The notes beneath the pieces are model-generated. The model was not told the DNA's origin. It did not search any database and was given only the letters and a program-made list of their open reading frames with translations. A DNA stretch of 64,000 nucleotides from Methylomonas sp. LL1 (GTDB lineage Bacteria; Pseudomonadota; Gammaproteobacteria; Methylococcales; Methylomonadaceae), in the NCBI RefSeq assembly GCF_015711015.1, contig NZ_CP064653.1, positions 2,790,001 through 2,854,000 of the forward strand, given 5' to 3'. Both the position numbers and the translations under genes were made by a program. Below are positions 29,238 to 45,040 of the stretch, piece by piece. The first letter of the stretch is position 1. Every line of letters begins with the position of its first letter.

Positions 29238-29290
29238 AGTATGCAGGGGCTGTGTATCAAACGAATTTCAGCTTGGTTTCATTTGTTTCA
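29238..29290 (-). promoter_or_regulatory. SARP-like promoter P1
   Basis: Minus strand. Half-sites TGAAAC, TGAAAC, TGAAAT and TGATACA; the last three are spaced 11 bases. TGATACA (29253-29259) is followed by 9 bases and the -10 box CATACT (29238-29243). Drives 28436-29149 and probably the two following genes. Confidence 0.75.
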
Positions 29291-29375
29291 GAGGCAGATG
29301 GGACGAAATTTCTGGGTGCGAGGGGAATTGAAGTGCAGGGTACGTTGAAGTTATCAATGCGGCGTTGCCACGCTT

Positions 29376-29460
29376 AAGATGCTGTCGCAAAAGTTAGGCG
29401 GGCTGAATGCAATGAAGTCCAGCATCTTGATTTTGTTGGGTTACGCTATGCTAACCCAAC
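29376..29460. repeat. Two palindromes in the 29.2-29.5 kb gap
   Basis: AAGATGCTG/CAGCATCTT (29376-29384 and 29420-29428) encloses an IS-end-like stretch, and GTTGGGTTA/TAACCCAAC (29435-29460) is a common interspersed palindrome. Apart from these and P1, the 400-base gap holds nothing recognised. Confidence 0.7.
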
Positions 29461-29547
29461 CTACGTTTTGACTTTATTACGCATCCTTAAGGCGGCGTTG
29501 CTTAACCGGGAAGGCGGTGAGAATGATAGGAACGGGGCCGTTTTGCT

Positions 29548-30318
29548 TTACGGTATCCGCCGCAGCCGGAATCGGTAGGAAAGCTTGCTGCCCGGCCAAG
29601 GCTGGCTGGCGGTTCCCTTGGGTAGCCACTCGCTCCAACGCTCGAAATCCTCGTCCGGATGCGCCGGCAGAGGCAACAAAAAATTTTGCGCGTACTGGTT
29701 GCCGATTTGCAAATCCAGCACCCGTTTGCCGCGATCGCCCAGCAACGGCAACTCGCCCGCGACGATCCAGCGACCTTCCGCCTCCCTGGCCTGTTCGATT
29801 CGTAATATGCCGGCATCGCTCCGACGCACGGTTTGATTATCAATGCAGGTCAAGTTTAACGACGAAATCGAGCGCTTGAAATGGTCGGTTGCACCGGCCG
29901 GTAGGCGGACCTCCACTTCCAACGCCAACGTCTGGCCGGCGATGGTTGGCGCAATATCCGCTCTCCATCGGCACAGTCCGGCGATGCCCAGTGCGAGTAC
30001 CATTACAATGGCGACGGCGATACTCAGCGCCTTGAAGAAACCGCCCGCCGAATGCCCCCATTTCAAACCGCACACCGCGCCGGCCGCCAAACCAACGCCG
30101 CCGCCGGCCAGCGCCACCCCGGCGATAAAATACCCCGACTGACCTTCGCGGCTGGATATTTGATACCAATCGACACAGGCCTCGCCAAGCCTGGCAAAGG
30201 CCAGCAAGCCGACAACGCCGCTCGGCAAGGCGACCAGCGCCGCTTTCAACAACGACATTGCGCCAACGGCAACGATACCGCCCGTGGCGGCGAGCAAGGA
30301 GATTTTTGTCGATTTCAT
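29548..30318 (-). CDS. Hypothetical membrane protein of the six-gene operon
   Basis: 256 residues from the ATG at 30318, supported by AAGGAG 8 bases upstream. Hydrophobic segments near residues 8-45, 62-85 and 93-115 suggest three or four membrane spans; the C-terminal half (from ADIAPTIAGQTLALEVEVRL) is soluble and beta-rich with a Cys. No family recognised. Last gene of the operon that begins at 34250; it starts 17 bases after the lipoprotein gene. Confidence 0.7.
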   Translation of the reverse strand: MKSTKISLLAATGGIVAVGAMSLLKAALVALPSGVVGLLAFARLGEACVDWYQISSREGQSGYFIAGVALAGGGVGLAAGAVCGLKWGHSAGGFFKALSIAVAIVMVLALGIAGLCRWRADIAPTIAGQTLALEVEVRLPAGATDHFKRSISSLNLTCIDNQTVRRSDAGILRIEQAREAEGRWIVAGELPLLGDRGKRVLDLQIGNQYAQNFLLPLPAHPDEDFERWSEWLPKGTASQPWPGSKLSYRFRLRRIP

Positions 30319-30334
30319 GTTAAACAACTCCTTA

Positions 30335-31552
30335 TCAATGATCCGTATCCGGCGCGGCGCCAAACATCGTCTCGTGCATGCCCTTTGATACTTCGGCTTC
30401 AAAGGCATCGCCCAGGCGATGTATCAACGCCTTCTGCAACTTCGGGTCGCCGGGTTGGTCCGGCCAATAGGCTAGGCCGAACCCCGCGACATAGAAGCCG
30501 TCGGCCAAGACCACGACATCCTCGCCCTCGATCGCGAAGCTCCGCGTCACTTGCTGCGAATATTCCATGCGAAAATCCGGCTTGCGCTTGGCACCGGGGA
30601 AACGCGCCAGGAAGGCCGTGAAGGCTTCGGTCTGATCGGTTGTTACGTTGGGCATCCGGAATTCGGGCGAATTGACCACGTAAATCCCCCGCCTGGGCAT
30701 AGGCTTGAAGTCCGGCCGCTCGGCCAAATGGTCGAGGCCGTCTTTCCCGAGCCGCCATTCGAAATGGTGCAGGATCCAGTCCGCGTCGATGTCCTCGAAC
30801 CGGGCAAAGCGCATGCGCGCCGGATCGATAGGTAGCCGGCGCCAGTCCTGACCACCCAGTTCAGCCACCGCCAACACGGGCTGCTGATCGTGGTCGGTAG
30901 CCGCCAACCTAGCCAGCGAACGTCCATCCGGCGAGAATACGATCGCCCGCGGCGCGTAAGGTGCGAAAAGATCGAAGGGCAAGCGGGGAATCGCGCCGGC
31001 TCGGCGGGTCGCCGTATCGTAGACGCAAGCATTGCCCAACAGCAGTTGGCGCGCGCCGGTCAGGCTGCGGTAATTCGGCCCGTGGTACGCCGTGCCGGCA
31101 CCCAGGCCGGCCAGCACCCGCACCTCGTTCTCGCCGCCGAAGCTCTTGCACACCACCGGCGCCAGCAACTGGCCAGCCTCCTGATGCAAGACATGGAATA
31201 CGCTGGCGTTGTTCGGGTCGCCCACCAGCACCAGCAGATCAGGCACCGCGCCGTCGCCGACCGCGAAAATTGCATGGACCGCCTCGGTGCGCATTGGCTG
31301 GTCCAAGCCCATGCCCGTGAAACTGTCGATGACCAGCGGCTGTCCCCGCCAACGCAGGGACCAGCTTTCGTAGCTGGATTCGCGGTCATAATTGGCGCTA
31401 CGCATCTTCCGAGTTTGGATCGTTACTTCGATGTCGCCATAACGTTCGCTCCGCTCGACCAATGCTTCGGTTTGTTCGGAACTGATCGCGCATCCCACCA
31501 GCAGCGTACTGACCAGGCAACCGGCCCAGCGCGATAATCGGTTATTTGCCAT
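30335..31552 (-). CDS. Hypothetical lipoprotein of the six-gene operon
   Basis: 405 residues from the ATG at 31552; a longer reading to 31897 runs through the preceding gene in another frame and is rejected. The signal MANNRLSRWAGCLVSTLLVG ends in a lipobox (LLVGC). The mature protein has a WD40/beta-propeller-like phrase (AIVFSPDGRSLARLA) and aromatic-rich strands; it may be a propeller-type scaffold. No enzymatic motif. Its position between a cytosolic hypothetical and a membrane protein suggests a cell-envelope function, but this is inference. Confidence 0.72.
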   Translation of the reverse strand: MANNRLSRWAGCLVSTLLVGCAISSEQTEALVERSERYGDIEVTIQTRKMRSANYDRESSYESWSLRWRGQPLVIDSFTGMGLDQPMRTEAVHAIFAVGDGAVPDLLVLVGDPNNASVFHVLHQEAGQLLAPVVCKSFGGENEVRVLAGLGAGTAYHGPNYRSLTGARQLLLGNACVYDTATRRAGAIPRLPFDLFAPYAPRAIVFSPDGRSLARLAATDHDQQPVLAVAELGGQDWRRLPIDPARMRFARFEDIDADWILHHFEWRLGKDGLDHLAERPDFKPMPRRGIYVVNSPEFRMPNVTTDQTEAFTAFLARFPGAKRKPDFRMEYSQQVTRSFAIEGEDVVVLADGFYVAGFGLAYWPDQPGDPKLQKALIHRLGDAFEAEVSKGMHETMFGAAPDTDH

Positions 31553-31584
31553 GATTTCCACCGTTTTGATGCTTGGCAATCGCC

Positions 31585-31977
31585 TTAAAGTTTCGCCAGC
31601 AACGCATCGCGAATCTCGCTGTCGTTGAGCATGCCCTGGGTGCCCAGCGCATAGGGGCAGCGCATTTCCAATACGCCGGCGTCGAAGTGAATGGAACGTG
31701 CTTCCATGTCGCCGACATTTTTCAGTTTGACCAGCTTCAAGCCATCGCGTACCGCTTGCTTCCCCATCTCGTCGATGCAAATCATGCGCAAGGCCATGTT
31801 GAGCCGATGGCAAGCGATGTTGTCCAGAAAGTTCAGCGCCGCGCCGTCTTCGGCCAAGCTGTCCCAATCGACTTGATACGGAATCGCCGCTCCGCAAATT
31901 TCTTCGATTTCGCGTTCGCGTTCCGGCAAGGTGATGTCTTGCAGCTCCTTGATTTTACGTCGTTCGGCCAGTGCCAT
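31585..31977 (-). CDS. Hypothetical cytosolic protein of the six-gene operon
   Basis: 130 residues with no signal peptide or membrane segment. Begins MALAERRKIKELQDITLPER, a charged helical stretch, then an alpha/beta domain with three Cys (EEICG, IACH, EMRCP). No recognised family. It is the only apparently soluble cytosolic product in this operon, 35 bases after the LprI-like gene. Confidence 0.7.
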   Translation of the reverse strand: MALAERRKIKELQDITLPEREREIEEICGAAIPYQVDWDSLAEDGAALNFLDNIACHRLNMALRMICIDEMGKQAVRDGLKLVKLKNVGDMEARSIHFDAGVLEMRCPYALGTQGMLNDSEIRDALLAKL

Positions 31978-32011
31978 GATGTTCTCCCGTGTTCGTTTAA
32001 AGTTTGGATGA

Positions 32012-32656
32012 CTATTTTCCCGTTCGCCGATAAACGGCGGGCTGGGCTTCCCCGTCTTCGAGAATTTCCAGCCGGTCGCCGTCCAAGGACTTTATCGTCA
32101 TTCCGGCGGCAGACCCATCGTCCGTCTCGCCCGGATAGAGCAGCAGCAACCGGCAGCCTTGAATTTGCCATTGGCCATCGACCAGTTCCGGACGGCTATG
32201 CAGCCAGGTATCGAAGCGGCCCCGGCCTTCGGTTTGGCCTTTTTCGAAGGCAATTTCCTCGAACGCTCCGAGCTCGGATACAATTTTCCAGGCGCCGGGC
32301 AAACGCTGCGCGTAACCGGCGCACCTGCTTTGCGAACATTGCCAGTTCTGTAGATCCAGCAGACGCTTGCGGTAGACGGCGGCCAGGCAAGCCTCGTCCA
32401 GGCAATCGTTACGGATTTCACGCAACCAGCGTTGTTGAGCTTCCTTAACTTCCCCGGCGGGGCAACGTCGGGTCGTAGCGGCATAAACCGCGCCAAGTTG
32501 CTCGTCCAGATGGCTCAACTCGCCGTCCCGGCAGATGAGACTTTCCACCGGCGCCTTGGCCTTGGCGCAGTCGAAACCGGCCGCGTGGGAGGTAACGTGG
32601 TATACGCCGAATCCCGCCAGCCATAGCCCCATCAGGGCAATTCGCAGACGTTTCAT
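32012..32656 (-). CDS. Exported protein with LprI-like (DUF1311) domain
   Basis: 214 residues from the ATG at 32656, with GAGGAGG upstream. Signal peptide MKRLRIALMGLWLAGFGVYH. Mature N-terminus FDCAKAKAPVESLICRDGEL and SHLDEQLGAVYAATTRR is the DUF1311/LprI pattern, with paired cysteines continuing at NDCLDEACLAAVY. The C-terminal half, from about 105, is a separate beta-rich domain (GAWKIVSELGAFEEIAFEKG) also with Cys pairs. LprI-type domains can inhibit lysozyme; role here unknown. Its start overlaps the preceding stop by 4 bases. Confidence 0.8.
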   Translation of the reverse strand: MKRLRIALMGLWLAGFGVYHVTSHAAGFDCAKAKAPVESLICRDGELSHLDEQLGAVYAATTRRCPAGEVKEAQQRWLREIRNDCLDEACLAAVYRKRLLDLQNWQCSQSRCAGYAQRLPGAWKIVSELGAFEEIAFEKGQTEGRGRFDTWLHSRPELVDGQWQIQGCRLLLLYPGETDDGSAAGMTIKSLDGDRLEILEDGEAQPAVYRRTGK

Positions 32657-33372
32657 ACCGAGGCCTCCTCGATTAGGCGACACAATCGGCGGATTGCGAG
32701 CAGGCGCTCGGCCGAGTTTTCAGTGTTAAAGGTCAGAAAAAACGGTCGCATCGCCAGATCGAACGGCTGTTGCGCCAACCCGTGCAAATAGGCGAGCAAG
32801 GCCGCGAAATGCACCGCCACGTCGCCGTCGCGCCGCTCCAGGCCTCGCCACAATGCTTCGATCACCGGCGCCGTCGGCAAATCGGCGGCCAAATCAATCG
32901 CGTCGCTCAAATCGTCCGCCCAGCTTGCATTTTCCAACCGTTCGGCAACGCTGGCGCTTTGAGCATCCTGATCGATCAGGGCCGGCGCTCGCTTCATCAA
33001 CGCCAGGCGCACCGATGGATTGCCCCGTTCCGCCGCAACGGCGAGCGCCGCCCGCGCAGTTTCGCTATCGAGCGCGATCAGTGCTTCGACATCGCGCCAG
33101 TCATTGACGCCGCGAACTAGCAATAACGATTCGACTTGCCAGCGATCCTCTACGGACATCCGCGCCAGCAGCGCGAGGTCGTAGCCGACGCCGTCGTGCC
33201 AACGCTGGTAATTCATCCCCATACTGGCGGTGAAGCGACGAAAGGTTTCCGATTCCTCGGCAATTGGCAATGGCGAATTATGGACAGTGCCGTTGCCGAC
33301 ATATCGACCTGCTTCGTCGTAACGCATCAGCGGATAACTGGCGTCGTTTGCGGCTTGGTCCCGGTCATTCAT
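32653..33372 (-). CDS. Hypothetical helical-repeat protein of the six-gene operon
   Basis: 239 residues, no signal peptide. Mostly alpha-helical with HEAT-like periodicity: NDWRDVEALIALDSETARAA, LAVAAERGNPSVRLALMKRA and similar units to the end. N-terminus contains RYDEAGRYVGNGTVHNSPLP. No family name can be given. It overlaps both neighbours by 4 bases (ATGA), showing tight translational coupling to the exported proteins on either side. Confidence 0.72.
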   Translation of the reverse strand: MNDRDQAANDASYPLMRYDEAGRYVGNGTVHNSPLPIAEESETFRRFTASMGMNYQRWHDGVGYDLALLARMSVEDRWQVESLLLVRGVNDWRDVEALIALDSETARAALAVAAERGNPSVRLALMKRAPALIDQDAQSASVAERLENASWADDLSDAIDLAADLPTAPVIEALWRGLERRDGDVAVHFAALLAYLHGLAQQPFDLAMRPFFLTFNTENSAERLLAIRRLCRLIEEASV

Positions 33373-34250
33373 TGCATTAACCCCCTGAAACTAGCGCCGC
33401 CCGCCGAATAGACGATGTCGTCAACCCGCCAAGCATCGGCCTCGCGAATCAATCGATACCGCAAGCGCGAGTCAAGGTCCGCGCCGGAAAACTTGACCTC
33501 CACCTCGGCCTTATCGCCGGCAATCCGCGCCGGTTGCACGGCAAAGCGGGGCGGATACTCCTGGCTGTCGGTAAAAGGGTCGCCGTTGATTGCCGGCACT
33601 TCATCGCTCGGCTGGGATTTGGCGAGATAGACGTTGGCCGCTTGCCACAAGCCCTCCGACAAAAACGGCCGCTTGTTTGCCAGCGTTTGCGCGGAAAATC
33701 CCATGCCCCCGGCAAAATGCGCTTCCAGCAAACGCTGCACCACGCCTTCCGGCGCCTTTGCCGCCGCCTTCGCGCCCGGCGCCCGCGACAAACTCCACAC
33801 CCGGTTGTCCAGGCCGATCAAAACGGTATCTTCATCGGCATAATGAAAGTCGAACACTCCGCTATCGCACCATAGCGAGCTGCTGTTCAGCGGAAACCGG
33901 ATTAATCCCAGCGCCAGCGCCGCCCGTGTCGCGTCGCCGGGCAGATTTCCTTGAAACAAGCCGGCTGCGGGCAATTGGATAAGCTCGCTCGACGCATTCT
34001 TGCAGGCAAATGGCTTGGGACCATCAACGCTATTGCCGGTCACCGTCAGCGTCCGTCCGGTCAAATCGGCCGCCCCTGGCAGCGGCGCGCCCCAGGGCGC
34101 CGGTAGGGCATGGGTAAAACGCCAAACGTCACGAAGCGTGGCGTCGACATCCTTGGCCACCACTTGGTTGCTTAATGCCAAACCCACCACTAACCCCACG
34201 GCGATGCCATTGCATAAGTGCCAGGATGCAAAAAGATTGTTCGAACTCAT
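33369..34250 (-). CDS. Exported hypothetical protein, first of six-gene operon
   Basis: 293 residues with a signal peptide (GIAVGLVVGLALSNQVVAKD). The C-terminal third (FLSEGLWQAANVYLAKSQP, then PPRFAVQPARIAGDKAEVEV and DAWRVDDIVYSAGGASF) resembles DUF3828-type periplasmic domains; the rest is unassigned. It is preceded by promoter element P2, 49 bases upstream, and overlaps the next gene by 4 bases. Confidence 0.75.
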   Translation of the reverse strand: MSSNNLFASWHLCNGIAVGLVVGLALSNQVVAKDVDATLRDVWRFTHALPAPWGAPLPGAADLTGRTLTVTGNSVDGPKPFACKNASSELIQLPAAGLFQGNLPGDATRAALALGLIRFPLNSSSLWCDSGVFDFHYADEDTVLIGLDNRVWSLSRAPGAKAAAKAPEGVVQRLLEAHFAGGMGFSAQTLANKRPFLSEGLWQAANVYLAKSQPSDEVPAINGDPFTDSQEYPPRFAVQPARIAGDKAEVEVKFSGADLDSRLRYRLIREADAWRVDDIVYSAGGASFRGLMQ

Positions 34251-34298
34251 GCTGCCTCCACGATGCCGTCGTTGAAACGGCGTGCTTGTTAAGGTTGC

Positions 34299-34361
34299 AG
34301 TGTATCCCCACCGCGTTTCAATCCGATTTCTAAATCGGCTGGTTTTGTTTCAATTGTTTCG
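34299..34361 (-). promoter_or_regulatory. SARP-like promoter P2
   Basis: Minus strand. GAAAC copies at the distal end, then AGAAATC and TGAAACG with G-to-G spacing of 11; TGAAACG (34314-34320) is followed by 9 bases and TACACT (34299-34304). Drives the operon 33369-34250 down to 29548. The distal end overlaps the stop of the following surface-protein gene. Confidence 0.75.
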
Positions 34362-36644
34362 GGGCCGGCGCTGCATCAACAACAAGCCCATCAGCGAACT
34401 CAGCATCAACCAGGCCGAAGCTGGCAGCGGCACGGCGGCGACACCTATACTGCCGTGGCTGGCGATTTTGGAGAAATCCAGCAGACTTCTGTCCAGGCCG
34501 GCGACGCTGATGCGGCTGGCGTCCAAATGACCGCCGAAGCTTTCGAAGCCGAACAATTGCCAGACGCTGGCCGCAACCGGCAGGCCTTCCAGACGAAACA
34601 CCAGGGCCAGGGTGCCGTTGAAATCCAGATGGCCGATGTTCGCTAACTGATCGTATTCGCTACCCGGAGTGGAGCCGAAGATTTCCATGGTCAGTACCGA
34701 GCCCTCGCCGTAGCTGACGTTGCCGTGGTTGAAATCGACTCTGGCCGAACTGTTACCGGGTTTATGGCCGGCGAGAAACTGGATGTCGCCGCTGAAGCTG
34801 CCGGCGCCCTTGACATCGTCTATAAAAGTCAGCAAACCCGAACCGGCGACGCTGCCGTTGTTGCTGAAGTCGCCGGCGATCAGCGCGTTACCGCTGAAAT
34901 TCAGGGTTTCGCCGTTGCCCAGCGCGATGCCGTTGGCCGCGTCCAGTCGACCGCCGTCGGCTATGCTGGTTTGAACGCCCAGTTGCGCCTGGTCCTGATC
35001 CAGCAGGATGATCCGGTTGCCGCCCACGTCCAGCTTGCCGCCGTAATCGAAACCATCCGCCGACAAGTAATCGCCCACATTTAAAGTACCGCCTTCGGCG
35101 CGAATGGTGTTGCCGGCGGTGCCGCCGCTGATGGCCGCCAGCACCGAACCCTTGCCGCTCAGAGTGCCAATGCCGGTCATGTATAAACTACTGTTCGAGT
35201 CGGCGATGACCATGCCGTTATCCACGGCCAGCACGCCGGCGCGGACAGTGCCGCCCTTCAGATACAGCGGCGCAACATCGGACAAAGTCAGTGTGCCGTC
35301 GACATCCAGGGTTTGATTGGCATGGAGCGTGGAAAACGGCTTGTCGTTTGCCATCCCCAGATGATGATCGCCGAGCAGGTTGACGGTACCCCGATACCAA
35401 TTGAATTGCGCGCCGTCCTCCAGCATCAACCCGCCGGTGCGCAGCACGCCGCCGTCCAAATTCAGCACGCCGCCGTCCTTGATCCAGGCACCCCTGGCAT
35501 TCAAGGTGCCGCGAACACCGATATTGACCTCTCCGCTATTCAGATACAGCTGTTCATTGACTTGCCAACTGGAACCCGTGCCGGCTATCAAGACGGCACC
35601 ATGATTTCCCGTCAGACCGACAATAGCGTAATTATTGACGACCTTGCCGCCATCGGCGATGGTCAGGCTACCGTTGCCGTCATAGCCAAGTACGAAGTCG
35701 TCGGCACCGGTGGTTTCCAGCAACGAACCATTGCCCGACACCCTGATCTCGCCGTTGGAGCCATCCGTCCAGCCAACTTGTAGCGACTTGCTAAGCACTT
35801 TTCCGCCTCCGACGATGTCGAGGGAACCACCCAGCAAAATGTCATCCCCGTTTTGCCATAATGACTGCGGACCGGCCACGGTCAACGCATTTGAATAATG
35901 TAGATTGGCATGCCGGGAGGTCATTTTTCCGCCATTGGAGACGTTGATTTCGCCAAGGGTGTTCAAATAACTTTTGATATTCCATTCGGAGCCGGCGCCC
36001 GTCACGGAGACGTGGCCGGTGCCGCCGATATTGCCGTCGCCGCCGCTGATACGGCTGCCCGTCTCGATAAAAAGCTCGGCGGCGGTATCGCCGCCGACAT
36101 TAACCGCGTGGTTGTAACCGTATTCGATTTCGAATAGGTAATCGACGCCATTGCTCAATGTCAGACGGCGCGAAGCAATCGTCAAATCCTGATTGCTGTT
36201 TACGCCGATTCCGGCGGAACCGCCATCCCAGGTCTGATCCGCGCCGATCGCGACGGGCAGGTTGAGGGTCTGCATTTTCGCGCTTTTGTTGACGATGTTA
36301 CCGGTGCTGGTGATTGCCTTGCCGTTTAAAATGTAAGCGCCGGAACCGGCCGCAAAAGTGATACCGGCAATGGAAAGGCCGGAGATGTCATTGTATGGAG
36401 TAAGGTCGTTGCTGCCTTGAAACTGCAGCGAGTCGCCGCTTATCGGAAACGACGCGGGAAGATTCCAGTTGGTATCGAGGAAATTAGGCGAATTGCTGTA
36501 ATCGACAAACCCCCAGTTGCTGTTCAGCGCACTGCCATCCCAGATGCGGGTAGTAGCTTGAGCGGATTGAAGAAACAGGCCGGAGACTAAAATACCGGAC
36601 AGGGCCACGGAAAGTGGCCGGCGTTTGAATGGCGATGGATACAT
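34350..36644 (-). CDS. VPLPA-CTERM surface protein with T5SS/PEP-CTERM repeats
   Basis: 764 residues. Signal peptide (LSVALSGILVSGLFLQSAQA), a long beta-helical passenger with repeats of the T5SS/PEP-CTERM-associated kind (GHVSVTGAGSEWNIKSYLN, GEIRVSGNGSLLETTGADD, GSLTIADGGKVVNNYAIVG), and a C-terminal sorting tag AAVPLPASAWLMLSSLMG followed by LLLMQRRPRNN. The tag is the VPLPA form recognised by exosortases. No autotransporter barrel is present. Expected to be surface-attached or released adhesin or matrix protein. Preceded by promoter P3. Confidence 0.9.
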   Translation of the reverse strand: MYPSPFKRRPLSVALSGILVSGLFLQSAQATTRIWDGSALNSNWGFVDYSNSPNFLDTNWNLPASFPISGDSLQFQGSNDLTPYNDISGLSIAGITFAAGSGAYILNGKAITSTGNIVNKSAKMQTLNLPVAIGADQTWDGGSAGIGVNSNQDLTIASRRLTLSNGVDYLFEIEYGYNHAVNVGGDTAAELFIETGSRISGGDGNIGGTGHVSVTGAGSEWNIKSYLNTLGEINVSNGGKMTSRHANLHYSNALTVAGPQSLWQNGDDILLGGSLDIVGGGKVLSKSLQVGWTDGSNGEIRVSGNGSLLETTGADDFVLGYDGNGSLTIADGGKVVNNYAIVGLTGNHGAVLIAGTGSSWQVNEQLYLNSGEVNIGVRGTLNARGAWIKDGGVLNLDGGVLRTGGLMLEDGAQFNWYRGTVNLLGDHHLGMANDKPFSTLHANQTLDVDGTLTLSDVAPLYLKGGTVRAGVLAVDNGMVIADSNSSLYMTGIGTLSGKGSVLAAISGGTAGNTIRAEGGTLNVGDYLSADGFDYGGKLDVGGNRIILLDQDQAQLGVQTSIADGGRLDAANGIALGNGETLNFSGNALIAGDFSNNGSVAGSGLLTFIDDVKGAGSFSGDIQFLAGHKPGNSSARVDFNHGNVSYGEGSVLTMEIFGSTPGSEYDQLANIGHLDFNGTLALVFRLEGLPVAASVWQLFGFESFGGHLDASRISVAGLDRSLLDFSKIASHGSIGVAAVPLPASAWLMLSSLMGLLLMQRRPRNN

Positions 36645-36893: not shown

Positions 36894-39095
36894 TCAGGCT
36901 TGAACGACTACCCGGCGACGTTGATTGAACAAGCCCCCCAGCAGCGAAGTCAGCATCAGCCAGCCCGATGCCGGCAGCGGCACGGCGGAGGTGGAGGCTA
37001 CCGACAGGCTGATGTGGTTTGCGTCGCGCAACAAGTCGAAGTGCAGACCGGCCAGTTCCGGGAAAAATATCTGGCTGAAGTCGCCCAGAAAACTATCGGC
37101 TTCGATTAGCGTGAAGAGATCGCCGGCCTTGGCCGAAAAGCCGTTCCACAGCGTGATGTCCAGAGCACCGCCCAGATTCAACACGCCGTTGACGTCGAAG
37201 GCATCGTATTCCGTGCCGCGCTGGTAACCGCCGATTTCCATGGTCAAGGTATTGCCGGTGCCGAAGCTGACATCGCCGTCGACCGACATGTAGCCTGGGC
37301 TATGGCCGGGACGCAGGTCGCCCTCGAAGAACACCTGTCCGCCGCCGGTAAATTCGCCGTTTCCCGACACCGTGCCCAGGAAGATACTGCCGGCGCCGGT
37401 GGCGGTTTTGATTTCGCCGTCGTTGACCATGTCGTCGTAGAACACGCTGGAGGTACCGAGGCCGGTGATGGCGATTTTGCCGCCGTCGTGGTTAACGATG
37501 TCGCCGGAGATGTCGTTGTAGCCTCCGGTCAGCGCCACACTGGCAACGTTGTGCAGGCCGCCGTTGAAACGCAGCGTGGCGTTGCGGCCGGCGATCACAC
37601 CGCTGTTCGGGTAATTGGTCAAATTGCCGTTGACTTCCAGCTCGCCGCTTATCACCTCCATCTTGCCGACATTGGCGTGGTTATCGCCGTCGACCAGCAG
37701 GTTTTGCCCGGCGGCGACGCGGATTTCGCCTTCGTTGCCGAGATTGGCGTGTATCGCGCCATTGCCGGTCAACACGCCGCCGGCTTGATTGATGACGTTA
37801 TAGGCATAGAGATTGTCGGCGACGATTTTACCGCTGCTGTAGACATCGCCGTTGATGCGGCCGTCGCCGGTCAGAATGCCCTTGCCGCCGATCATCAGAT
37901 GGAGGCTTTCCGGGCTGATGTCGCCGCCGTTCAATTTCAACGTGGTGTAACCGTCTAAGTTTTGGGTGCCCAAGGCTAGGCCCTTGATTTGCGCATTGGC
38001 GGCGGGGCCGATCACTGTTTTGGAGGTATCGCTATCCAGGCTGACTTGTTGCAATTCGCTGGGCCGCATGTTCCAGTCCCAGTTCGCCGCATCGTCCCAC
38101 GAGCCGTTATGGGCGCCGGTCCAGATCGATTCGGCGATGGTCAGCAAGTAGCCGAAACCCTTGCCGTCCTGAGAATGGGCCAGGCCGACGATCTGGCCGT
38201 GCTCGTTGATGTCGGTGGCGCTGATCAAGGTCATACCGGCGGCCGGATCGACCAGATCGTTCAAATCCTTCATGCCGGAGGATGCGGTCCACAAGAAGGC
38301 GCCGCTCGAAAAACCGGACCAATCGCGGAAGGCGCCGACCACTTGACCATTGTCGCTAATGGTATCGGCGTGGTAAGAACTGTTGGCCTTGAAGCTGTCC
38401 AGTTTATGGGCTTGGCCGTTTTCCCAGATCACCGCATGGCTATACAGACCGCCATTGCCGCCGTAACCGACGGCTACCCCCTGACTGTTGATGGCGTTGG
38501 CGACGGAATACCAATCGTCAGCATATTGCGGCAGAAGGGTCGTGCTTCCACCGGAATAAAGTGCCGCCTGGGCGTTTTGCCCCGACTGGTAACCGGCGGC
38601 CGTGCCGCTATCGTTGATGGCCTTTCCGTAAAAACTAACGGTGTCCGTCCAGATTCCGGACACGGTGTCATATAGGTTGTTGCCGATTACCATCGTCCCA
38701 TTGTTGTTGATCGCCATAAAGTCCGATGTGTTGCCAAGACCCACTTCCGTCACGGTACCGTTAATCCAGTAAGTGGGGCTGTCGTTGCCTTTAATGCCGC
38801 CGTATGAGCGGCCAATCACCACGCCAGCATCGTTGAGGTCCACGGCTGACGCATCGGCTATTCCCTGCGGATTGGCGGCGTGCGGCAGGTAAGTAAAGGC
38901 GCCGTTACGCCAGAGCCATGCCTTATATTCCAGCCCCAGCTGAGTGCCGACCACATCGCCATGATTGTTGACGGCGGCGGCCATCATGTTTTGGCCCAAC
39001 AAGTCCAGTTGAGCAGCCGGCACGGCTTGAGCGGTATCGACGGCGAGAGTGGCGGCAATGGCGACGGTTAATGCGTTCAATTTGAAGAAATTCAT
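36894..39095 (-). CDS. VPLPA-CTERM surface protein with HAF repeats
   Basis: 733 residues. Signal peptide (LTVAIAATLAVDTAQA). Residues 30-330 hold HAF-type repeats, each like AVNNHGDVVGTQLG or AINSQGVAVGYGGNGG followed by aromatic AFLW/AVIWENG text, forming a propeller-like domain. Residues 340-700 form a beta-helical passenger. The C-terminus AVPLPASGWLMLTSLLGG with basic NQRRRVVVQA is a VPLPA-CTERM tag. Same tag type as the next gene downstream, so both probably use the same exosortase. Preceded by promoter P4. Confidence 0.9.
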   Translation of the reverse strand: MNFFKLNALTVAIAATLAVDTAQAVPAAQLDLLGQNMMAAAVNNHGDVVGTQLGLEYKAWLWRNGAFTYLPHAANPQGIADASAVDLNDAGVVIGRSYGGIKGNDSPTYWINGTVTEVGLGNTSDFMAINNNGTMVIGNNLYDTVSGIWTDTVSFYGKAINDSGTAAGYQSGQNAQAALYSGGSTTLLPQYADDWYSVANAINSQGVAVGYGGNGGLYSHAVIWENGQAHKLDSFKANSSYHADTISDNGQVVGAFRDWSGFSSGAFLWTASSGMKDLNDLVDPAAGMTLISATDINEHGQIVGLAHSQDGKGFGYLLTIAESIWTGAHNGSWDDAANWDWNMRPSELQQVSLDSDTSKTVIGPAANAQIKGLALGTQNLDGYTTLKLNGGDISPESLHLMIGGKGILTGDGRINGDVYSSGKIVADNLYAYNVINQAGGVLTGNGAIHANLGNEGEIRVAAGQNLLVDGDNHANVGKMEVISGELEVNGNLTNYPNSGVIAGRNATLRFNGGLHNVASVALTGGYNDISGDIVNHDGGKIAITGLGTSSVFYDDMVNDGEIKTATGAGSIFLGTVSGNGEFTGGGQVFFEGDLRPGHSPGYMSVDGDVSFGTGNTLTMEIGGYQRGTEYDAFDVNGVLNLGGALDITLWNGFSAKAGDLFTLIEADSFLGDFSQIFFPELAGLHFDLLRDANHISLSVASTSAVPLPASGWLMLTSLLGGLFNQRRRVVVQA

Positions 39096-39544: not shown

Positions 39545-40477
39545 ATGTCGATCTACACAATCCCCCAAATTACTCTGCAAACGATGCCGCGTTTCCGGCC
39601 TGATCTTTCAGGTTGGCTGGATGCCGCGGCCAACTTCGGTTTGGTGATGCCGCTGGGCGCCGCCAGCGCGGTGTCGCTGGTGCCGCTGGTTGCTACCGGA
39701 CAGGTTTCCCCGCCGTTGGCGCTAGCGGCCTTTTTGTGCGTCTATTCGAGCTATCTGATCGATCACCTGAGCGATGTCGGGCGGCTGGACGCCGGGCTGG
39801 CGTCGTCCCGGACAAAAACACTCGCCCGCATTTCGCTATTCAGGGGCCTAGGTCTCTGCGCTTATCTACTGTCGATGTGGTTGACGCTAAACTGCGCCGG
39901 TCTAAACGCGGCCATGATCCTGCTGTGTTTCCCTTTATCCGTGACCTTATATGCGACCCCGCTATTCGGCCGTTTGACGCGCGGCCTGTTCGGCTACCGG
40001 CGGTTCAAGGACATACCCGGCTTCAAGTCGATTTATACGGCATTTTTCTGGGGCTTGTTGATGGTCTATGCCGCCGTTTTCGTCGGTGGCACCGAGCCGC
40101 ATATCGTCGGTTTTTTCTTCACATACATGCTGTTGTCCGATGTCGTCAATACGGTGTTTTGCGATTACAAGGATCTGGAACGGGACCGCGCCGAAGGCGT
40201 ACTCACCTGGGTGACCATGCTCGGTCCGGCGCGTACCACTCGCTTGCTGAAACAAATCAACATTGCCGCCTTCGGATTGCTGATGCTGGCCGTCGCCGCG
40301 CACTGGATGCCGCACTGGTTGCTGGCGTTGGGAGCGGTTCATCTATATGTCCATGCCGTGATCGGCCAAGGCCATGCCATCACCGTTAACGGCGGTAATC
40401 CAGGCGATGCGCTGATGGATGCCGCGCTCGTTTTGTGGTTGCCGTTTGCCCTGCTGGGCATATTCATCGGCCAATAA
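39545..40477 (+). CDS. UbiA-superfamily prenyltransferase-like membrane protein
   Basis: 310 residues, AGGAG 7 bases upstream of the ATG. About eight hydrophobic segments. Two Asp-rich sites fit the UbiA fold: SSYLIDHLSDVGRLD (Asp73, 77, 82) in place of the usual NDxxDxxxD, and CDYKDLERD (Asp207, 210, 214) as DxxDxxxD. UbiA enzymes transfer prenyl groups from allylic diphosphates to aromatic or other acceptors via Mg2+ bound at these sites. The variant first motif means the activity is not certain. It is followed after 21 bases by a Pyr4-like terpene-cyclase homologue and controlled by P5. Confidence 0.75.
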   Translation: MSIYTIPQITLQTMPRFRPDLSGWLDAAANFGLVMPLGAASAVSLVPLVATGQVSPPLALAAFLCVYSSYLIDHLSDVGRLDAGLASSRTKTLARISLFRGLGLCAYLLSMWLTLNCAGLNAAMILLCFPLSVTLYATPLFGRLTRGLFGYRRFKDIPGFKSIYTAFFWGLLMVYAAVFVGGTEPHIVGFFFTYMLLSDVVNTVFCDYKDLERDRAEGVLTWVTMLGPARTTRLLKQINIAAFGLLMLAVAAHWMPHWLLALGAVHLYVHAVIGQGHAITVNGGNPGDALMDAALVLWLPFALLGIFIGQ

Positions 40478-40498
40478 GCACACACAGGAGGAAATGCT

Positions 40499-41152
40499 AT
40501 GTCTACACAGGAATCTTGGTGGTTTACCCTATCGGGTTCGGCTTCGGCTCTGCTATGGATCGTCGCCTACGGGCTGATTATTCGGCGCGGTTTCAAGGAC
40601 CGCAGCTACGGCATGCCGTTCGCTCCGTTATGCGTGAATATGTCTTATGAGCTGATTTTCGGCTTTGTGTATCCCGATCAGCCGCCCATGAACTACGCAA
40701 ACCAGGTTTGGTTCGCGATCGATTTGATCATTTTCTACCAGTTTATCCGTTTCGGAAAAAGCGAGTTCGAACGGCTGTTCCCGCGCGCCTGGTTCCTGCC
40801 TGCCGTGAGCTTGAGCGTGTTGCTGGCGTTCGGCGGCGTGCTTGCCGTGACGCTGGAGTTTCACGATTTCCACGGTAACTACACCGGTTGGGGCGATCAA
40901 TTGCTGATTTCAATATCGTTCATCTGGTTGTTGGCGCGGCGCGGCAGCGTCGCCGGACAGTCGGTGTATATTGCGCTGTCGCGTATGCTGGGCTCGATCG
41001 TGCTAATTCCGGGACAGATGATCCAGGGGCCGGCGGATTCGGTACTGCTTGGTTTTATTTATGTGAGTTTCGCGACACTCGATGCGATCTACATCGCGCT
41101 GCTGATCCGCCAATGCCGCCTGGAAGGCATCAATCCCTGGCGGCGGCTGTGA
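40499..41152 (+). CDS. Pyr4/PaxB-like membrane terpene cyclase homologue
   Basis: 217 residues with AGGAGG upstream. About seven membrane segments, the same size and layout as the Pyr4/PaxB class of integral-membrane cyclases that cyclise (epoxy)prenyl chains in meroterpenoid pathways. The segment KDRSYGMPFAPLCVNMSYE is the hallmark, with Glu51 in the place of the essential Glu of Pyr4, and Asp195 in FATLDAIYIALL in the place of the essential C-terminal Asp. It is tightly linked to the prenyltransferase-like gene. Substrate unknown; cyclase function is inferred from motifs and context. Confidence 0.68.
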   Translation: MSTQESWWFTLSGSASALLWIVAYGLIIRRGFKDRSYGMPFAPLCVNMSYELIFGFVYPDQPPMNYANQVWFAIDLIIFYQFIRFGKSEFERLFPRAWFLPAVSLSVLLAFGGVLAVTLEFHDFHGNYTGWGDQLLISISFIWLLARRGSVAGQSVYIALSRMLGSIVLIPGQMIQGPADSVLLGFIYVSFATLDAIYIALLIRQCRLEGINPWRRL

Positions 41153-41241
41153 TGGGTGAAGCGCCAATTCGCCGAGGGTATTGTCATCGAAGCAGGATAC
41201 GGCATGAATAATCGAGCAAACATCTGCCCCGGTTGCTTGCG

Positions 41242-41760: not shown

Positions 41761-41962
41761 CGCCTCCGCCCCATCCAACAGAATTGAAGCGATAGACCGC
41801 ACCGCTTCCCCGGCCGGCGATAATACCGGAGAAGCGTATACAGATGACTTACAGATCGAAAAAAAACTTACTTTTTGGAAGGATTTGTAACTTGGCTACG
41901 GGAAACAGACGTTCGAATTCTAGGATTGCATTCCGAAAAGAGCCCCTCCTTGCAGTCCGAGG

Positions 41963-44902
41963 CTATCCTCGCCCTCCTATCCGACATTTAAGCTTGGCTT
42001 CAACGCAAAGCCGCTCTATCCGTTTACGCGCCTCGGCCAGCCACGGCAGGCCGGTTTCATGGGGGAGAAATTCACCATTGGGCGGCAGCGGGCAACGGGA
42101 GACATCGGCGCAAAAACACTCGCCAGTCGCAGCCATGGTTTCGATGACCGCAACGTCGCACCAACACCGGCTCGGATCGAGACTAACCCGGCCATCGCGG
42201 ACGCTCAGGCAGTCTTCGCCGAGCAGGCCGCGCAGGCGGTGCAAATTGGTATGCAAGGCTCGTTTCGCGGCATCGCCGTCGGCATCGGGCCACAGCGCAT
42301 CGGCCAAGACCTCCTGGCCGACGTCCCTGCAACCGAAGCCGATCAAGGCCTTTAGCAACTCCAACGGCTTGACCGGTGCCCGGCTGGCGGAAAATGCCAA
42401 AGGCTTGCCGTCGAGTCGGATTTCGAAGCGTCCCAGCGTCTGAATACGCACCGGCCACGGCCAGCCGTCGGCCTGTAATGGCGGCCGCTCCGGCAATAAA
42501 TCGTGCCTTCGAATCAGGCCCTCGACGTAATCCAGAGCCACGCCCCGCGCCAATGTGGCGACGCAATAGCGGGCCAAGACCGGCCGCTGCCAGTGGATGC
42601 CGTAACAATTCGCCAGACCGTAACGCTTGCCGAACGCAAAAAACTCGGCGAGCGCACGCGACATTACATCTTCGTCGCCAAGGCTCTCGGCCAATTCCAG
42701 TTCGGCGAACAATACATCCCAATGGGCGACGACCGAGCCGCATCCCGGCGCGGCCGCCTTGGCTTTGTTCATGGCCGCCAACGCGCCGGCCGCATCCTGT
42801 TCGGCCTGACAACGCCAAACCGCCGCCAACAAGGCATACGAGGCGCAGGACAGAATTTCGGTGCGCGCGGCGTAGCGCTCGACTTCGCTCGCGGCATCGA
42901 CGACCGCGGCATCGTCGCGCCTGGCCCTGGCTTCCAGCAGGCGCAGGAAATGATATTGATAAGCATCGTAGCCGCGAGGCATCGCCATGTAGGGCAATAG
43001 CGCCGCCAGCGCGTCGGCCGCGCCCTTGCGGTCACCGGCATAGGCCGGAATCAACACGGCCTGTAACTTGAAATAACAATCGAGAATGCGCACGCCACTG
43101 GTTTCGGCGAAACTCAGCGCGCGGCACAAGACTTGTTCGAGGCCGGCCATGTCGGCAGCCAACCAGTAGTGGAAGGCGTGCATGGTTTCCCACATCAAAC
43201 GCACCAGCGGCGGCGTTGCTTCCCCCAGGCTGTCGGCGGCGAAACGCGCCGCCAGGCGTTCGGCGCGCAAATTATCGCCGCGAACGCCCAACCAATACAT
43301 CAACAGATTCGATGCGGCGGCAACCTTGAGTTGAGGATCGCGAATGCCCGGCGTCAAGTCTTCCAAGCGCGCCGCGATGCCCTCCAGACCCGGCGTATCG
43401 GGATGGCGCAAGGTGGGCAGGAACAACGAAAAGGTCAACACGCCGGCTTCCAGTTCCGGATTCGGAAAAGCCGGGAAGCGCTCGCGCAACGCCGGCAGGA
43501 CGGCCAGCCAAGGATCGGCGGCGGCAATACCCTCGAAAGCGAAGATGAAGCTGGCGCCAATCGCGATCCACGCCGAATAACAACCCGCGGCATCGTCCGC
43601 TACATCGAAGCCGGCGAACGCCATGGCGTAAAAGCGCCGTGCTTCCTCGGGGTTAATCGGCAAGCGGCAGGCGCCTTGAAAATAGCGTAGCCAGGGGCGA
43701 CGGTCGAGTTCCGTTTCCGGCAAGGCCGCCAACCAGGCCGCAAGACCGGCGATCCGCCCGGCGGCGTGTAGTGTCGGCGCCAATACCAACAGCGCATCGG
43801 CCATCGCCGCCCAATCCTCGATCGCTAAAAACCGTTCGATACCGGCTTCGAAATCGCCATGCGCGCACAAGATCGAGGCCGTCCGCGCGGTAAGCTCGCG
43901 CCAACGGCTGGAAGCATAGTGACGGCTGGCGCGGGTCAGCAGAAACTCGCGAAACAGGGGATGGAATTCGTAACAACCGCTGCCCCGATGGTAAACCGTA
44001 AACAGATTGCGCCTGGCCAGATCCGCCAGCAAATTCTCGGCGTCGGCGCGCCCGGTCAATTCGGCGGCACTGTCCGGGCGGATTTCTCCCAGCAAGGCGC
44101 ATAACATCAAAAACTCAGGCAATTCCGCTTCCAAGCCGGCCAGAATTTCGGCGGCAAAAAAATCGAACAACAAGGGATCGTCGGCAAGTCGATTTCCACC
44201 CTCGATGTCACCGTGTTCCAGCGCCAAGACCAAGCCTGCCGCCCAGCCGCCGACGCGCCGGTTGAGCAGTGCGGCCCGATCGTCGTTCATGGCGTGGCCG
44301 AGACGATTTGCCGCCAACCTCCTGCATTCGTCGTCGTCCAGACGCAGGTCTTGCCAGCCGAGTAACGAAACTTCGCCGCTCAGCCTCATCCTCGCCCATT
44401 CCGCCGGCGGTTCGTTGCGGCTGACGACGATGACCTGGGCGTTGGCCGGTGTTTCTTCCAAGCCATGGCGCAGCAAAACGTGTAAGGCCGCGTTGGCCGG
44501 CAAGTCATGGTAATCGTCCAGCACCAGCAAACGGCAATCCGTCTGCCACAGGCGGCGGAAGAAATTACGGGCGAACACCGGCAGCCCCAAGGCATATTCA
44601 GGCGTCAACAACGGCAAAGCTTCGTCGTCGGACATAAACCTGCCGGCGGCCAGACTTAGATAGGCAAAAAATGCCGCCGGTTCGGCATCGCCGGCATCGA
44701 TGTGGTACCACAAGGCCGATTTGCCGCGCGCCTTCAACCAGCTGGAAACCAGCGAGGTCTTGCCGGAACCCGCTGGCGCGGCGATCCAGACCAGACGTGC
44801 TCCACTATCCAATTTTGCGAACAGGCGCGGGCGCGGCAGACAGCGTTCGGCCGACGGCGGGGTCAGTTTAAAAGGCAGAGTGTTGGCGGTTAACAGATTC
44901 AT
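41963..44902 (-). CDS. Large ATP-binding transcriptional activator with SARP/OmpR-like domain
   Basis: 979 residues. The N-terminus carries a STAND-type NTPase like MalT: Walker A APAGSGKTSL (about 42-51) and Walker B LLVLDDYHDLPAN (about 127-139). A long helical TPR-like middle part follows. Residues about 850-960 form a winged helix of the OmpR/SARP kind: QTLGRFEIRLDGKPLAFS, PVKPLELLKALIGFG, LWPDADGDAAKRALHTNLHR and LRGLLGEDCLSVRDGRVSL. Such a domain binds heptameric direct repeats. Its own promoter P6 and five nearby promoters carry matching repeats, so this is the likely local activator. The ligand or partner that triggers it is unknown. Confidence 0.87.
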   Translation of the reverse strand: MNLLTANTLPFKLTPPSAERCLPRPRLFAKLDSGARLVWIAAPAGSGKTSLVSSWLKARGKSALWYHIDAGDAEPAAFFAYLSLAAGRFMSDDEALPLLTPEYALGLPVFARNFFRRLWQTDCRLLVLDDYHDLPANAALHVLLRHGLEETPANAQVIVVSRNEPPAEWARMRLSGEVSLLGWQDLRLDDDECRRLAANRLGHAMNDDRAALLNRRVGGWAAGLVLALEHGDIEGGNRLADDPLLFDFFAAEILAGLEAELPEFLMLCALLGEIRPDSAAELTGRADAENLLADLARRNLFTVYHRGSGCYEFHPLFREFLLTRASRHYASSRWRELTARTASILCAHGDFEAGIERFLAIEDWAAMADALLVLAPTLHAAGRIAGLAAWLAALPETELDRRPWLRYFQGACRLPINPEEARRFYAMAFAGFDVADDAAGCYSAWIAIGASFIFAFEGIAAADPWLAVLPALRERFPAFPNPELEAGVLTFSLFLPTLRHPDTPGLEGIAARLEDLTPGIRDPQLKVAAASNLLMYWLGVRGDNLRAERLAARFAADSLGEATPPLVRLMWETMHAFHYWLAADMAGLEQVLCRALSFAETSGVRILDCYFKLQAVLIPAYAGDRKGAADALAALLPYMAMPRGYDAYQYHFLRLLEARARRDDAAVVDAASEVERYAARTEILSCASYALLAAVWRCQAEQDAAGALAAMNKAKAAAPGCGSVVAHWDVLFAELELAESLGDEDVMSRALAEFFAFGKRYGLANCYGIHWQRPVLARYCVATLARGVALDYVEGLIRRHDLLPERPPLQADGWPWPVRIQTLGRFEIRLDGKPLAFSASRAPVKPLELLKALIGFGCRDVGQEVLADALWPDADGDAAKRALHTNLHRLRGLLGEDCLSVRDGRVSLDPSRCWCDVAVIETMAATGECFCADVSRCPLPPNGEFLPHETGLPWLAEARKRIERLCVEAKLKCRIGGRG

Positions 44903-44958
44903 GGACTTATCGTAACAGTTCTTGCGCTAGCATTTTCAGTCGCCCGCGTCATCGGGAA

Positions 44959-45040
44959 AGTATCACTGCTGTTCGTTTCGATTCGGTTTCCGCCGCGTTG
45001 CTTTGGTTTCACCGCCCCGGAGAATTGTTTCAATTGTTGC
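44959..45040 (-). promoter_or_regulatory. SARP-like promoter P6 (regulator's own)
   Basis: Minus strand. TTGAAAC, TGAAACC, GGAAACC and CGAAACG; the last two are 11 bases apart. CGAAACG (44974-44980) is followed by 9 bases and GATACT (44959-44964). Implies autoregulation. The plus-strand response regulator gene starts 69 bases beyond its distal end. Confidence 0.75.

Follow-up and report, generated by a model that had tools for sequence, protein, structure and literature searches.

Direct repeats of 11 bp located beside the -10 box are a familiar operator layout of PhoB/OmpR response regulators. A related layout is described for the large SARPs of actinobacteria. In the accessible part of the respective study, these bind direct repeats at a period of either 11 or 22 bp; the 3' repeat lies near the -10 box, the -35 element is poor, and in AfsR the winged helix and the BTA domain jointly make up the SARP module (PMC10936776). 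The main operator of the SARP-LAL regulator PimR consists of three heptamers with 4-bp spacers, while a second operator is built from 10-bp units, according to the portion of text available (PMC5930380). A 2024 review, as far as its text is accessible, describes SARPs as exclusively actinobacterial (PMC10972967). No description of a proteobacterial SARP operator was found in the literature searched, most subscription papers being beyond the reach of the search.

Here, we report on six promoters, P1-P6, around the gene of a 979-aa regulator in the window, i.e., the whole 64-kb stretch of DNA that was analysed (Table 1). The regulator is very probably a gammaproteobacterial STAND-SARP activator of a local, self-activating regulon, which would comprise surface and secreted proteins as well as a small terpene operon.

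All six promoters show, where the preliminary description had located them, a proximal half-site followed by exactly 9 nt and a -10 box. A second half-site exactly 11 bp upstream is present in 6/6 as proposed, but its classification as GAAA-type fails in P5, which carries TGAAGT. The TGAAAC element expected 31-33 bp upstream of the proximal half-site was recovered in each promoter. It belongs to a distal pair, absent from the earlier account, whose half-sites are exactly 9 bp apart (6/6), and represents the first member of this pair in P1, P5 and P6 and the second one in P2-P4. Between the distal pair and the proximal 11-bp pair lies a distance of about one or two helical turns. In P6, two 9-bp pairs are present. 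No regulon found here is more elaborate than this one, whose promoters each carry between four and six half-sites. A distal 9-bp pair is not mentioned in the SARP literature text compared, which comprised the accessible parts of the papers. Hexamers 15-19 nt before the -10 box match a TTGACA-like -35 element at no more than two of six positions in all six promoters, and an ORF starts 48-88 nt downstream of each -10 box on the correct strand (6/6).

Table 1. Predicted promoters and genes of the locus. Half-site positions are given relative to the proximal half-site (= 0).
Feature	Position	Strand	Characteristics	Context
P1	29238..29290	-	half-sites -31, -22, -11, 0; N9; -10 CATACT	upstream of 28436-29149 / 27621-28412 / 26754-27599 run
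P2	34299..34361	-	half-sites -41, -32, -11, 0; N9; -10 TACACT	upstream of 33369-34250 run; overlaps 3' end of ORF 34350-36644
P3	36720..36782	-	half-sites -41, -32, -11, 0; N9; -10 TATACT	upstream of 34350-36644
P4	39152..39215	-	half-sites -42, -33, -11, 0; N9; -10 TAGACT	upstream of 36894-39095
P5	39409..39462	+	half-sites -32, -23, -11, 0; N9; -10 GATACT	upstream of 39545-40477 / 40499-41152
P6	44959..45041	-	six half-sites -61, -52, -31, -22, -11, 0; N9; -10 GATACT	regulator gene's own promoter
281-aa HEAT-repeat protein	26754..27599	-		P1 run
263-aa secreted-looking protein	27621..28412	-	right-handed beta-helix-like by eye	
237-aa PEP-CTERM protein	28436..29149	-		P1 run, first gene
286-aa ORF	29548..30408	-	membrane segments by eye	P2 run probably ends here
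520-aa ORF from TTG	30335..31897	-	true start probably internal, lipoprotein-like MANNRLSRWAGCLVSTLLVGCA, by eye	
223-aa protein	32012..32683	-	signal-like N-terminal stretch; no Pfam family at 0.001; presumably LprI-like, by eye	
239-aa protein	32653..33372	-	no Pfam family at 0.001	
293-aa DUF3828 protein	33369..34250	-		P2 run, first gene
764-aa surface protein	34350..36644	-	T5SS/PEP-CTERM repeats; VPLPA-CTERM sorting signal, weak, with a score under the curated cut-off	
733-aa surface protein	36894..39095	-	HAF repeats; VPLPA-CTERM sorting signal, weak, with a score under the curated cut-off	
UbiA-like prenyltransferase	39545..40477	+	Pfam score below curated cut-off	first gene after P5
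Pyr4-like transmembrane terpene cyclase	40499..41152	+		P5 unit
Regulator, 979 aa	41963..44902	-	MalT-type STAND NTPase ~9-402; helical repeat superhelix ~330-800; winged helix ~815-915; truncated BTAD ~916-979	
Divergent OmpR-family response regulator	45073..45822	+	conservation in G029 suggests, by eye, 45109 as the likelier start	

A regular expression for the full architecture has exactly six matches in the window, namely P1-P6. The proximal pattern GAAANNNGNTTGATACA-N9-TATACT with up to three mismatches is found five times in the 4.92-Mb genome, always at P1-P5 and within one 16-kb stretch, and its reversed control yields no match genome-wide; P6 has five mismatches to this pattern and is too diverged for the scan. 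The genome scan suggested in the preliminary description thus placed the motif not at random positions but at the locus, and a motif dispersed over the genome is ruled out by the 5/5 matches at P1-P5. As the search patterns were built from P1-P6 themselves, only the absence of further genomic sites is informative here. Two weaker patterns were discarded: the distal a-b element alone (GAAACAATTGAAACA, up to two mismatches) is unspecific, with 34 matches in the own genome versus 6 in the control, and TTGATACA-N10-ATACT with two mismatches gives 92 versus 59. When 30 of the 34 GAAACAATTGAAACA matches were checked with the full-architecture expression, P1-P6 alone fitted. The restriction of the proximal pattern to the locus and the full architecture at all six promoters support the local regulon of about 14 genes predicted earlier.

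Among 37 genomes of the genus, the window's own included, a close orthologue of the regulator (L040, 77% identical) occurs only in G029, a fragmented Methylomonas MAG (570 contigs, 78% complete), which is the sole basis of the close comparison. G029 carries three pattern matches on contigs C30 and C403, all with the full architecture (3/3), while the other 35 genus genomes sum up to 30 matches versus 31 in the reversed control, i.e., background. The promoter of the orthologue keeps half-site positions identical to P6 with changed spacer letters. A counterpart of P2 is retained on C30, likewise directly after a surface-protein gene, and at one G029 site, the gene downstream encodes a VPLPA-type surface protein of 910 aa that resembles one window protein only in part. 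GAAACAATTGAAACA has 17 matches in this MAG (control 3); by eye, the complete arrangement is seen in only three of them, located on C30 and C403. Over the six window and three G029 sites, the fixed N9 spacing with a -10-like hexamer and the distal 9-bp pair are each found in 9/9, and the proximal pair measures exactly 11 bp in 6/6 and 3/3, respectively.

P3 and P4 share a long stretch of identity and may result from a duplication, hence these two sites are not independent. That recent duplication of one promoter-gene block solely accounts for the likeness of all promoters is, however, highly improbable. It would suit the near identity of P3 and P4, both of which precede VPLPA-type surface proteins, whereas P1, P2, P5 and P6 are little alike beyond the half-sites, belong to different spacing classes and precede unrelated genes, and the P6 positions are exact in G029 despite the altered spacer. 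We give equally little credit to a dedicated alternative-sigma-factor promoter, in which TTGATAC...ATACT would form a short-spaced -35/-10 pair and activator sites would be lacking. The N9 distance to a well-conserved -10-like hexamer, fixed in 9/9 sites, could be read in this way, but three to five additional half-sites in tandem, at helical spacings up to -61, represent an activator geometry, and the block between the half-sites varies by approximately one helical turn.

The candidate for such an activator is the 979-aa protein, to which the preliminary description had assigned a SARP-like C-terminal domain. A C-terminal profile of the regulator and 13 relatives matches AfsR (8hvr, 7e-21) and EmbR (8.8e-12) over winged helix and BTAD; it also matches TPR proteins, designed ones among them, but these matches are confined to the BTAD repeats. 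Residues 818-915 show a winged-helix-like secondary structure. With single sequences, Trans_reg_C reaches E 0.046 for the regulator and 1.3e-4 for the G029 orthologue, both under the Pfam cut-off. The N-terminus matches MalT (8bob_C, E 3.6e-30) and the STAND protein 6mfv, and both STAND NTPase and helical repeat superhelix are present (model pLDDT 87). No Pfam match to BTAD occurs in the regulator (E up to 10) or in the G029 orthologue (at 0.1), and the alignment of the regulator covers the first BTAD elements only. BTAD was matched in five of the six family proteins scanned (E 4.8e-11 to 7.1e-26), the exception being the G029 orthologue, and short C-terminal ends are also found in the relatives L126, L131, L138 and L251. 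Pfam detects neither a LuxR-type HTH at the C-terminus (E up to 10) nor a Response_reg receiver domain in the 979-aa protein. The assignment stands with respect to the profile matches to AfsR, but with its truncated BTAD the protein is no textbook SARP. Since winged helix and BTA make up the AfsR module jointly, this truncation weakens the SARP analogy. Judged by its sequence, the regulator is a derived member of a STAND-SARP lineage, presumably SARP-like in working, and not a strict SARP because a complete BTAD is missing.

The hosts are not actinobacterial: the nearest named relative is the Methylomonas MAG, and matches to the regulator were found in the order and in the class Gammaproteobacteria. 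With the E-value limit set to 1e-40, a match is obtained in 25/311 order genomes and in 43/369 class genomes; with a limit of 0.001, the order-level number is 33/311, which also counts MalT-type proteins whose end is LuxR-like. Judged by the class-level count, regulators of this type are no rarity among Gammaproteobacteria. When the half-site class was fixed from the window, period 11 produced 10 sites in the vicinity of 20 relatives, against a single site in the 20 control stretches (Fisher 0.004), four of the ten being chance-like (three inside ORFs by simple ORF calls, and one at L125 without a nearby downstream gene). Other periods from 8 to 18 yield 0-3 sites near relatives versus 0-3 in controls. 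A held-out test at class level with the pre-set half-site class gave 5 versus 0 (P 0.064), where two of the five are both strands of one place and one, at L241, is probably due to chance. Exact 7-mer repeats, counted irrespective of their letters in the flanks of 42 relatives, amount to 20 at period 11 and to 2-10 at 19 other periods; for two of the 42 (L122, L136), frames are broken and flanks were set from partial frames.

The flanks, 62 kb in total, contain 22 occurrences of an 11-bp repeat of the TGT class, compared with 16 in 1.2 Mb of other sequence (39 control loci, L159 dropped), where the 22 count two triple repeats twice and include several same-genus sets and a probable chance match at L128. 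This repeat is present in the flanks of 20/42 relatives from 11 genera, and no cognate operator was identified by the TGT class in the flanks of the remaining 22/42. As this class was chosen after inspecting those flanks, its letters are circular and the very small P value obtained for it is disregarded, whereas the period comparison and the letter-free 7-mer test are free of this circularity. Exact GTTACC-N5-GTTACC has 21 matches in 35 genomes versus 18 in the reversed control and thus no genome-wide excess. For six of the 21, a family regulator is encoded no more than 5 kb away, among them both matches of G310, which was outside the discovery set, and a -10-like hexamer [TCG]ANNNT follows exactly 10 nt on in 6/6 of them versus 0/15 of the others. 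Over whole neighbourhoods, exact-hexamer repeats with a -10 box are only mildly enriched at period 11, with 31 against 18 in the controls and other periods reaching up to 37 against 32; the enrichment is sharp only in the regulator's own flanks. The half-sites differ, being of GAAAC/GATAC type in the window versus TGTAAG, TGTTACC or TGTGAC type in the relatives. Together with the G029 sites, the period-11 repeats beside relatives suggest that the SARP-like layout is tied to the regulator, as initially proposed.

This connection also bears on the divergent OmpR-family response regulator encoded next to P6. In OmpR/PhoB-type systems, a -35 element is likewise replaced by 11-bp direct repeats, and this protein, together with a hybrid kinase, might bind the repeats, with the MalT-SARP protein as just one target. 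It has an OmpR-family DNA-binding domain, and in G029 the orthologous regulator is adjoined by a piece with 87% identity to it, which spans 69 residues and runs up to the contig end. We consider it an unlikely binder, disfavoured by the neighbourhoods of the relatives and by the loci of its own homologues. In 18 of 20 neighbourhoods (7-20 kb) there is no tblastn match to it at 1e-4, yet the relatives carry the 11-bp spacing, and the other two contain only 29-31% matches. No such site occurs at the loci of its five next-best homologues within the genus (43-53% identity, flanks of 1.5 kb). The 11-bp spacing clusters directly beside genes for 979-aa-type regulators.

From a mechanistic point of view, we infer that the 979-aa protein itself acts on the promoters. 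Its MalT-like NTPase and helical repeat superhelix would perceive a signal and probably cause the protein to oligomerise in an ATP-dependent manner. The winged helices of the SARP-type C-terminus would then be placed side by side on the 11-bp direct repeats, directly upstream of the -10 box, where they could substitute for the missing -35 contact and recruit sigma-70 RNA polymerase, and the distal 9-bp pairs, on about the same helical face, may add cooperative binding. The repeats in the regulator's own promoter, already noticed in the preliminary description, are borne out by the six half-sites of P6 in an autoregulatory position, through which the protein presumably activates its own gene. 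It would further activate five neighbouring units, which comprise exported surface proteins, the DUF3828 run and the UbiA/terpene-cyclase pair. Co-travelling of the terpene operon with the regulator was not found in the 311 genomes of the order: the Pyr4-like cyclase is present in four of them, the window's genome included, and the other three are without a regulator match.

In a wider context, there is a reasonable case that Gammaproteobacteria harbour a widespread, undescribed SARP-type branch, in which a MalT-type STAND switch carries a C-terminal SARP domain. Each member would have its own 11-bp repeat address (of TGTAAG, TGTTACC, TGTGAC or GAAAC type) beside its own gene and would control a local target set that is small, quickly changing and mostly made up of exported proteins, such that operator letters and DNA-binding domain form a co-evolving code. 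In methanotrophs, a legible operator grammar here accompanies a MalT-type protein whose DNA-binding end is of SARP type; along with same-spacing repeats beside many relatives across Gammaproteobacteria, this may offer a route to predicting targets for a large group of signal-transducing ATPases. Different half-sites combined with related winged helices provide a natural series for how SARP domains read DNA, and a surface-protein set under one self-activating switch would be a simple system.

Compared with known systems, MalT shares the NTPase and the helical repeat domain with our regulator (8bob_C as above; 1hz4 at rank 49), which differs in the lack of a LuxR-type HTH and scores 179.8 of 537 bits with the NCBIfam MalT model, far under the cut-off. 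PhoB/OmpR regulators have the winged helix and 11-bp direct repeats beside the -10 box in common with it, but the regulator is without a receiver domain, and a weak test, the hhalign comparison of our C-terminal alignment with the response regulator of the window, gave a probability of 0.1. The large SARPs (AfsR; 8hvr, 8k60, 8jke) resemble it in the winged helix and BTAD matched by the family profile as well as in NTPase and helical repeats. The domain order is reversed, the SARP part being N-terminal there and C-terminal here, and a MalT-type NTPase, a truncated BTAD and a gammaproteobacterial host set our regulator apart. The evenly spaced repeats resemble the operator code of Streptomyces antibiotic activators, whereas the predicted window regulon consists mainly of surface proteins and not of an antibiotic cluster. 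Counted from the TGATACA-type heptamer, the gap to the -10 box is 9 nt in 9/9 sites here versus 8 for SARPs in the accessible text of PMC10936776; the register in which the heptamer is read can be set with a freedom of about 1 bp. PimR, as far as the available part of its description goes, likewise combines a SARP domain with a LuxR-type large ATP-binding part, and its two operators are comparable to the 11-bp and 9-bp pairs of our promoters. It differs in an N-terminal SARP domain, a single target gene and an operator without -35 overlap, and the units of its second operator measure 10 bp, whereas the second pair measures 9 bp in 9/9 sites here.

The six repeat-bearing promoters P1 to P6 lie where the preliminary description had placed them and carry the architecture it proposed: exactly 9 nt separate a proximal half-site (TGATACA, TGTTACA, TGAAACG or CGAAACG) from the -10 box in all six, and a second half-site is located exactly 11 bp upstream of the proximal one, again in all six. 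Three layouts occur, which are offset from each other by approximately one helical turn, and their positions thus place a distal half-site pair with 9 bp spacing in every promoter. The regulator's own promoter, P6, bears the repeats as described, with six half-sites. A TTGACA-like -35 element was not found in any of the six; hexamers 15-19 nt before the -10 box match at most 2 of 6 positions.

Features of the window and of two related loci. Half-site positions are counted from the proximal half-site (0); targets are predicted, with operon boundaries taken from gene order and strand.
Feature	Position	Strand	Layout and half-site positions	Predicted targets or content
P1	29238-29290		compact: -31,-22,-11,0	PEP-CTERM protein, beta-helix-like protein, HEAT-repeat protein
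P2	34299-34361		extended: -41,-32,-11,0	DUF3828 protein and the next four ORFs
P3	36720-36780		extended: -41,-32,-11,0	single large surface protein
P4	39152-39213		extended: -42,-33,-11,0	single large surface protein
P5	39408-39462		compact: -32,-23,-11,0	UbiA-like prenyltransferase, Pyr4-like terpene cyclase
P6	44959-45040		double: -61,-52,-31,-22,-11,0	regulator; perhaps also 41242-41802
Prenyltransferase and cyclase genes	39545-41152			
Regulator	41963-44902	-		979 aa
Response regulator	45073-45822	+		OmpR family
Hybrid sensor kinase	50260-54690			1476 aa
Two-strand repeat	L246:7613-7660			GGTAACATGGCGGTAACATGG
Cys-rich protein	L203:4026-4538			170 aa, exported-looking

The motif is not scattered at random over the 4.92-Mb host genome (two contigs), a point which the preliminary description had left to a genome scan: allowing up to three mismatches, the proximal pattern has five matches, all of them P1-P5, and the reversed pattern has none in the whole genome. 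As the pattern was derived from the P1-P5 sites themselves, what counts is that nothing else in the genome matches. The architecture is neither a product of chance nor a genome-wide feature.

The closest named relative of the regulator is found in a Methylomonas MAG, on a contig identical in sequence to one of the sister genome G029, which is classed in the same genus as the window genome. Among 37 genus genomes, that of the window included, only G029 carries a close orthologue (77%), and six further ones show matches of 30-32%. The proximal pattern occurs at three places in G029, each with the complete architecture. The first is the orthologous P6 with all six half-site positions unchanged; the second is P2-like and lies directly 3' of a surface-protein gene, as P2 does in the window; the third, of compact layout, lies upstream of that same gene, whose 910-aa, VPLPA-type product is partially similar to the 733-aa protein of the window (28% over 309 columns). 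Since the assembly is fragmented, more targets may be absent from it. The remaining 35 genus members have 0-5 matches each, and their sum of 30, versus 31 in the reversed control, is background.

The UbiA-like prenyltransferase gene adjoins that of the Pyr4-like transmembrane cyclase; this combination of enzymes is familiar chiefly from meroterpenoid pathways of fungi. Within the order the cyclase is rare, being encoded in 4 of 311 genomes, and the fragmented G029 assembly yielded none; it thus seems not to be a constant component of the regulator system.

The 11-bp spacing is common to relatives of the regulator. With the half-site class fixed from the window, a search for two half-sites at a distance of 11 bp, followed after 9-11 nt by a -10-like hexamer, gave 10 sites near 20 relatives versus 1 in 20 control stretches from ten of the same genomes (Fisher 0.004); other periods from 8 to 18 yielded 0-3 in either set. 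Tandem repeats of the GTTACC or GTAAC type make up six of the ten sites; five of the six are located at most 300 bp upstream of ORFs, and by eye four of these ORFs look exported. For period 11, the original half-site class yielded 5 versus 0 in the class-level held-out set, which alone is not significant (P 0.064).

A count of exact 7-mer repeats, independent of any letters and confined to the flanks of 42 regulators, stands at 20 for period 11 and at between 2 and 10 for every one of 19 other periods; the 32 at period 11 in the rest of the neighbourhoods are unremarkable. A TGT class of half-sites, picked after these flanks had been read, gives 22 11-bp repeats in 61.5 kb of flank versus 8 in the 523 kb of neighbourhood outside the flanks and another 8 in 696 kb of control sequence, and 0-2 in the flanks at other periods from 6 to 25. 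Such a repeat flanks 20 of the 42 regulators, and the best -10-like hexamer follows the second hexamer by 10 or 11 nt in 13 of the 18 cases with one in range. Upstream of the regulators at L237 and L239, TGTAAG/TGTAAC repeats are triple, their three copies 11 bp apart. At L246 the 11-bp repeat matches the pattern whichever strand is read, and a -10-like hexamer stands on either side of it. At L122 and L136, the relatives have broken reading frames and their neighbourhoods are kept; L136 still has an 11-bp repeat.

Exact GTTACC-N5-GTTACC shows no genome-wide excess in 35 genomes (21 occurrences versus 18 in the reversed control). Six of the 21 lie within 5 kb of a family regulator (1 of 1 in G047, 2 of 2 in G105, 1 of 3 in G270, and 2 of 2 in G310, which is outside the set in which the repeat was discovered), and a -10-like hexamer exactly 10 nt after the repeat accompanies all six versus none of the 15 elsewhere. 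The Cys-rich protein adjoins the regulator in G310, its gene lying about 480 bp downstream of a GTTACC 11-bp repeat by a simple ORF call.

A natural rival for binding the repeats is the divergent OmpR-type response regulator, which is kept beside the regulator orthologue in G029. However, a match to it at 1e-4 is absent from 18 of 20 relatives' neighbourhoods, the remaining two hold only 29-31% matches, and no such repeat is present at the loci of the five homologues in the genus that rank next after it. The hybrid sensor kinase of the window carries two kinds of periplasmic-binding domain, NMT1-like and SBP_bac_3, in a single chain.

As for the regulator, the presumed binder of the repeats, its residues 9-402 match the MalT NTPase. 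The N-terminal part of the profile of alignment A1 (16 family members) resembles MalT and its C-terminal part AfsR and EmbR; the profile of the C-terminal alignment A2 (14 members) gives AfsR an E-value of 7e-21, with the match spanning the winged helix and the bacterial transcriptional activation domain (BTAD). Designed and other TPR proteins likewise match these profiles, mostly over the BTAD repeats and in some cases at E-values below those of the SARP matches. The predicted structure (pLDDT 87) suggests an NTPase, a helical superhelix and a winged-helix-like domain, and its closest Foldseek matches are MalT and a STAND protein. Since no SARP is among the best 50 matches listed, the putative SARP assignment is based on sequence profiles. 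The SARP-like C-terminal domain of the preliminary description agrees with the AfsR/EmbR matches. In the window regulator the BTAD stops after its first elements, and no Pfam BTAD was found there. Five of six family proteins scanned have one, the G029 orthologue being the exception; short C-terminal ends also occur in a few other relatives.

Under the SARP rule given in PMC10936776, the direct repeats are spaced 11 or 22 bp and the 3' repeat is 8 bp from the -10 box. The repeat spacing of P1-P6 matches this layout, whereas the gap to the -10 box is 9 in the window promoters. PimR, according to PMC5930380, likewise has two operators of differing spacing. A review terms SARPs exclusively actinobacterial (PMC10972967), and a limited search of the open-access literature found no proteobacterial SARP operator. 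Databases probably already list BTAD-bearing proteins from proteobacteria; it is the operator code and the regulon that seem undescribed. Compared with known SARPs, the host range is new, as are the reversed order of the domains, the truncation of the BTAD and the distal pairs spaced 9 bp.
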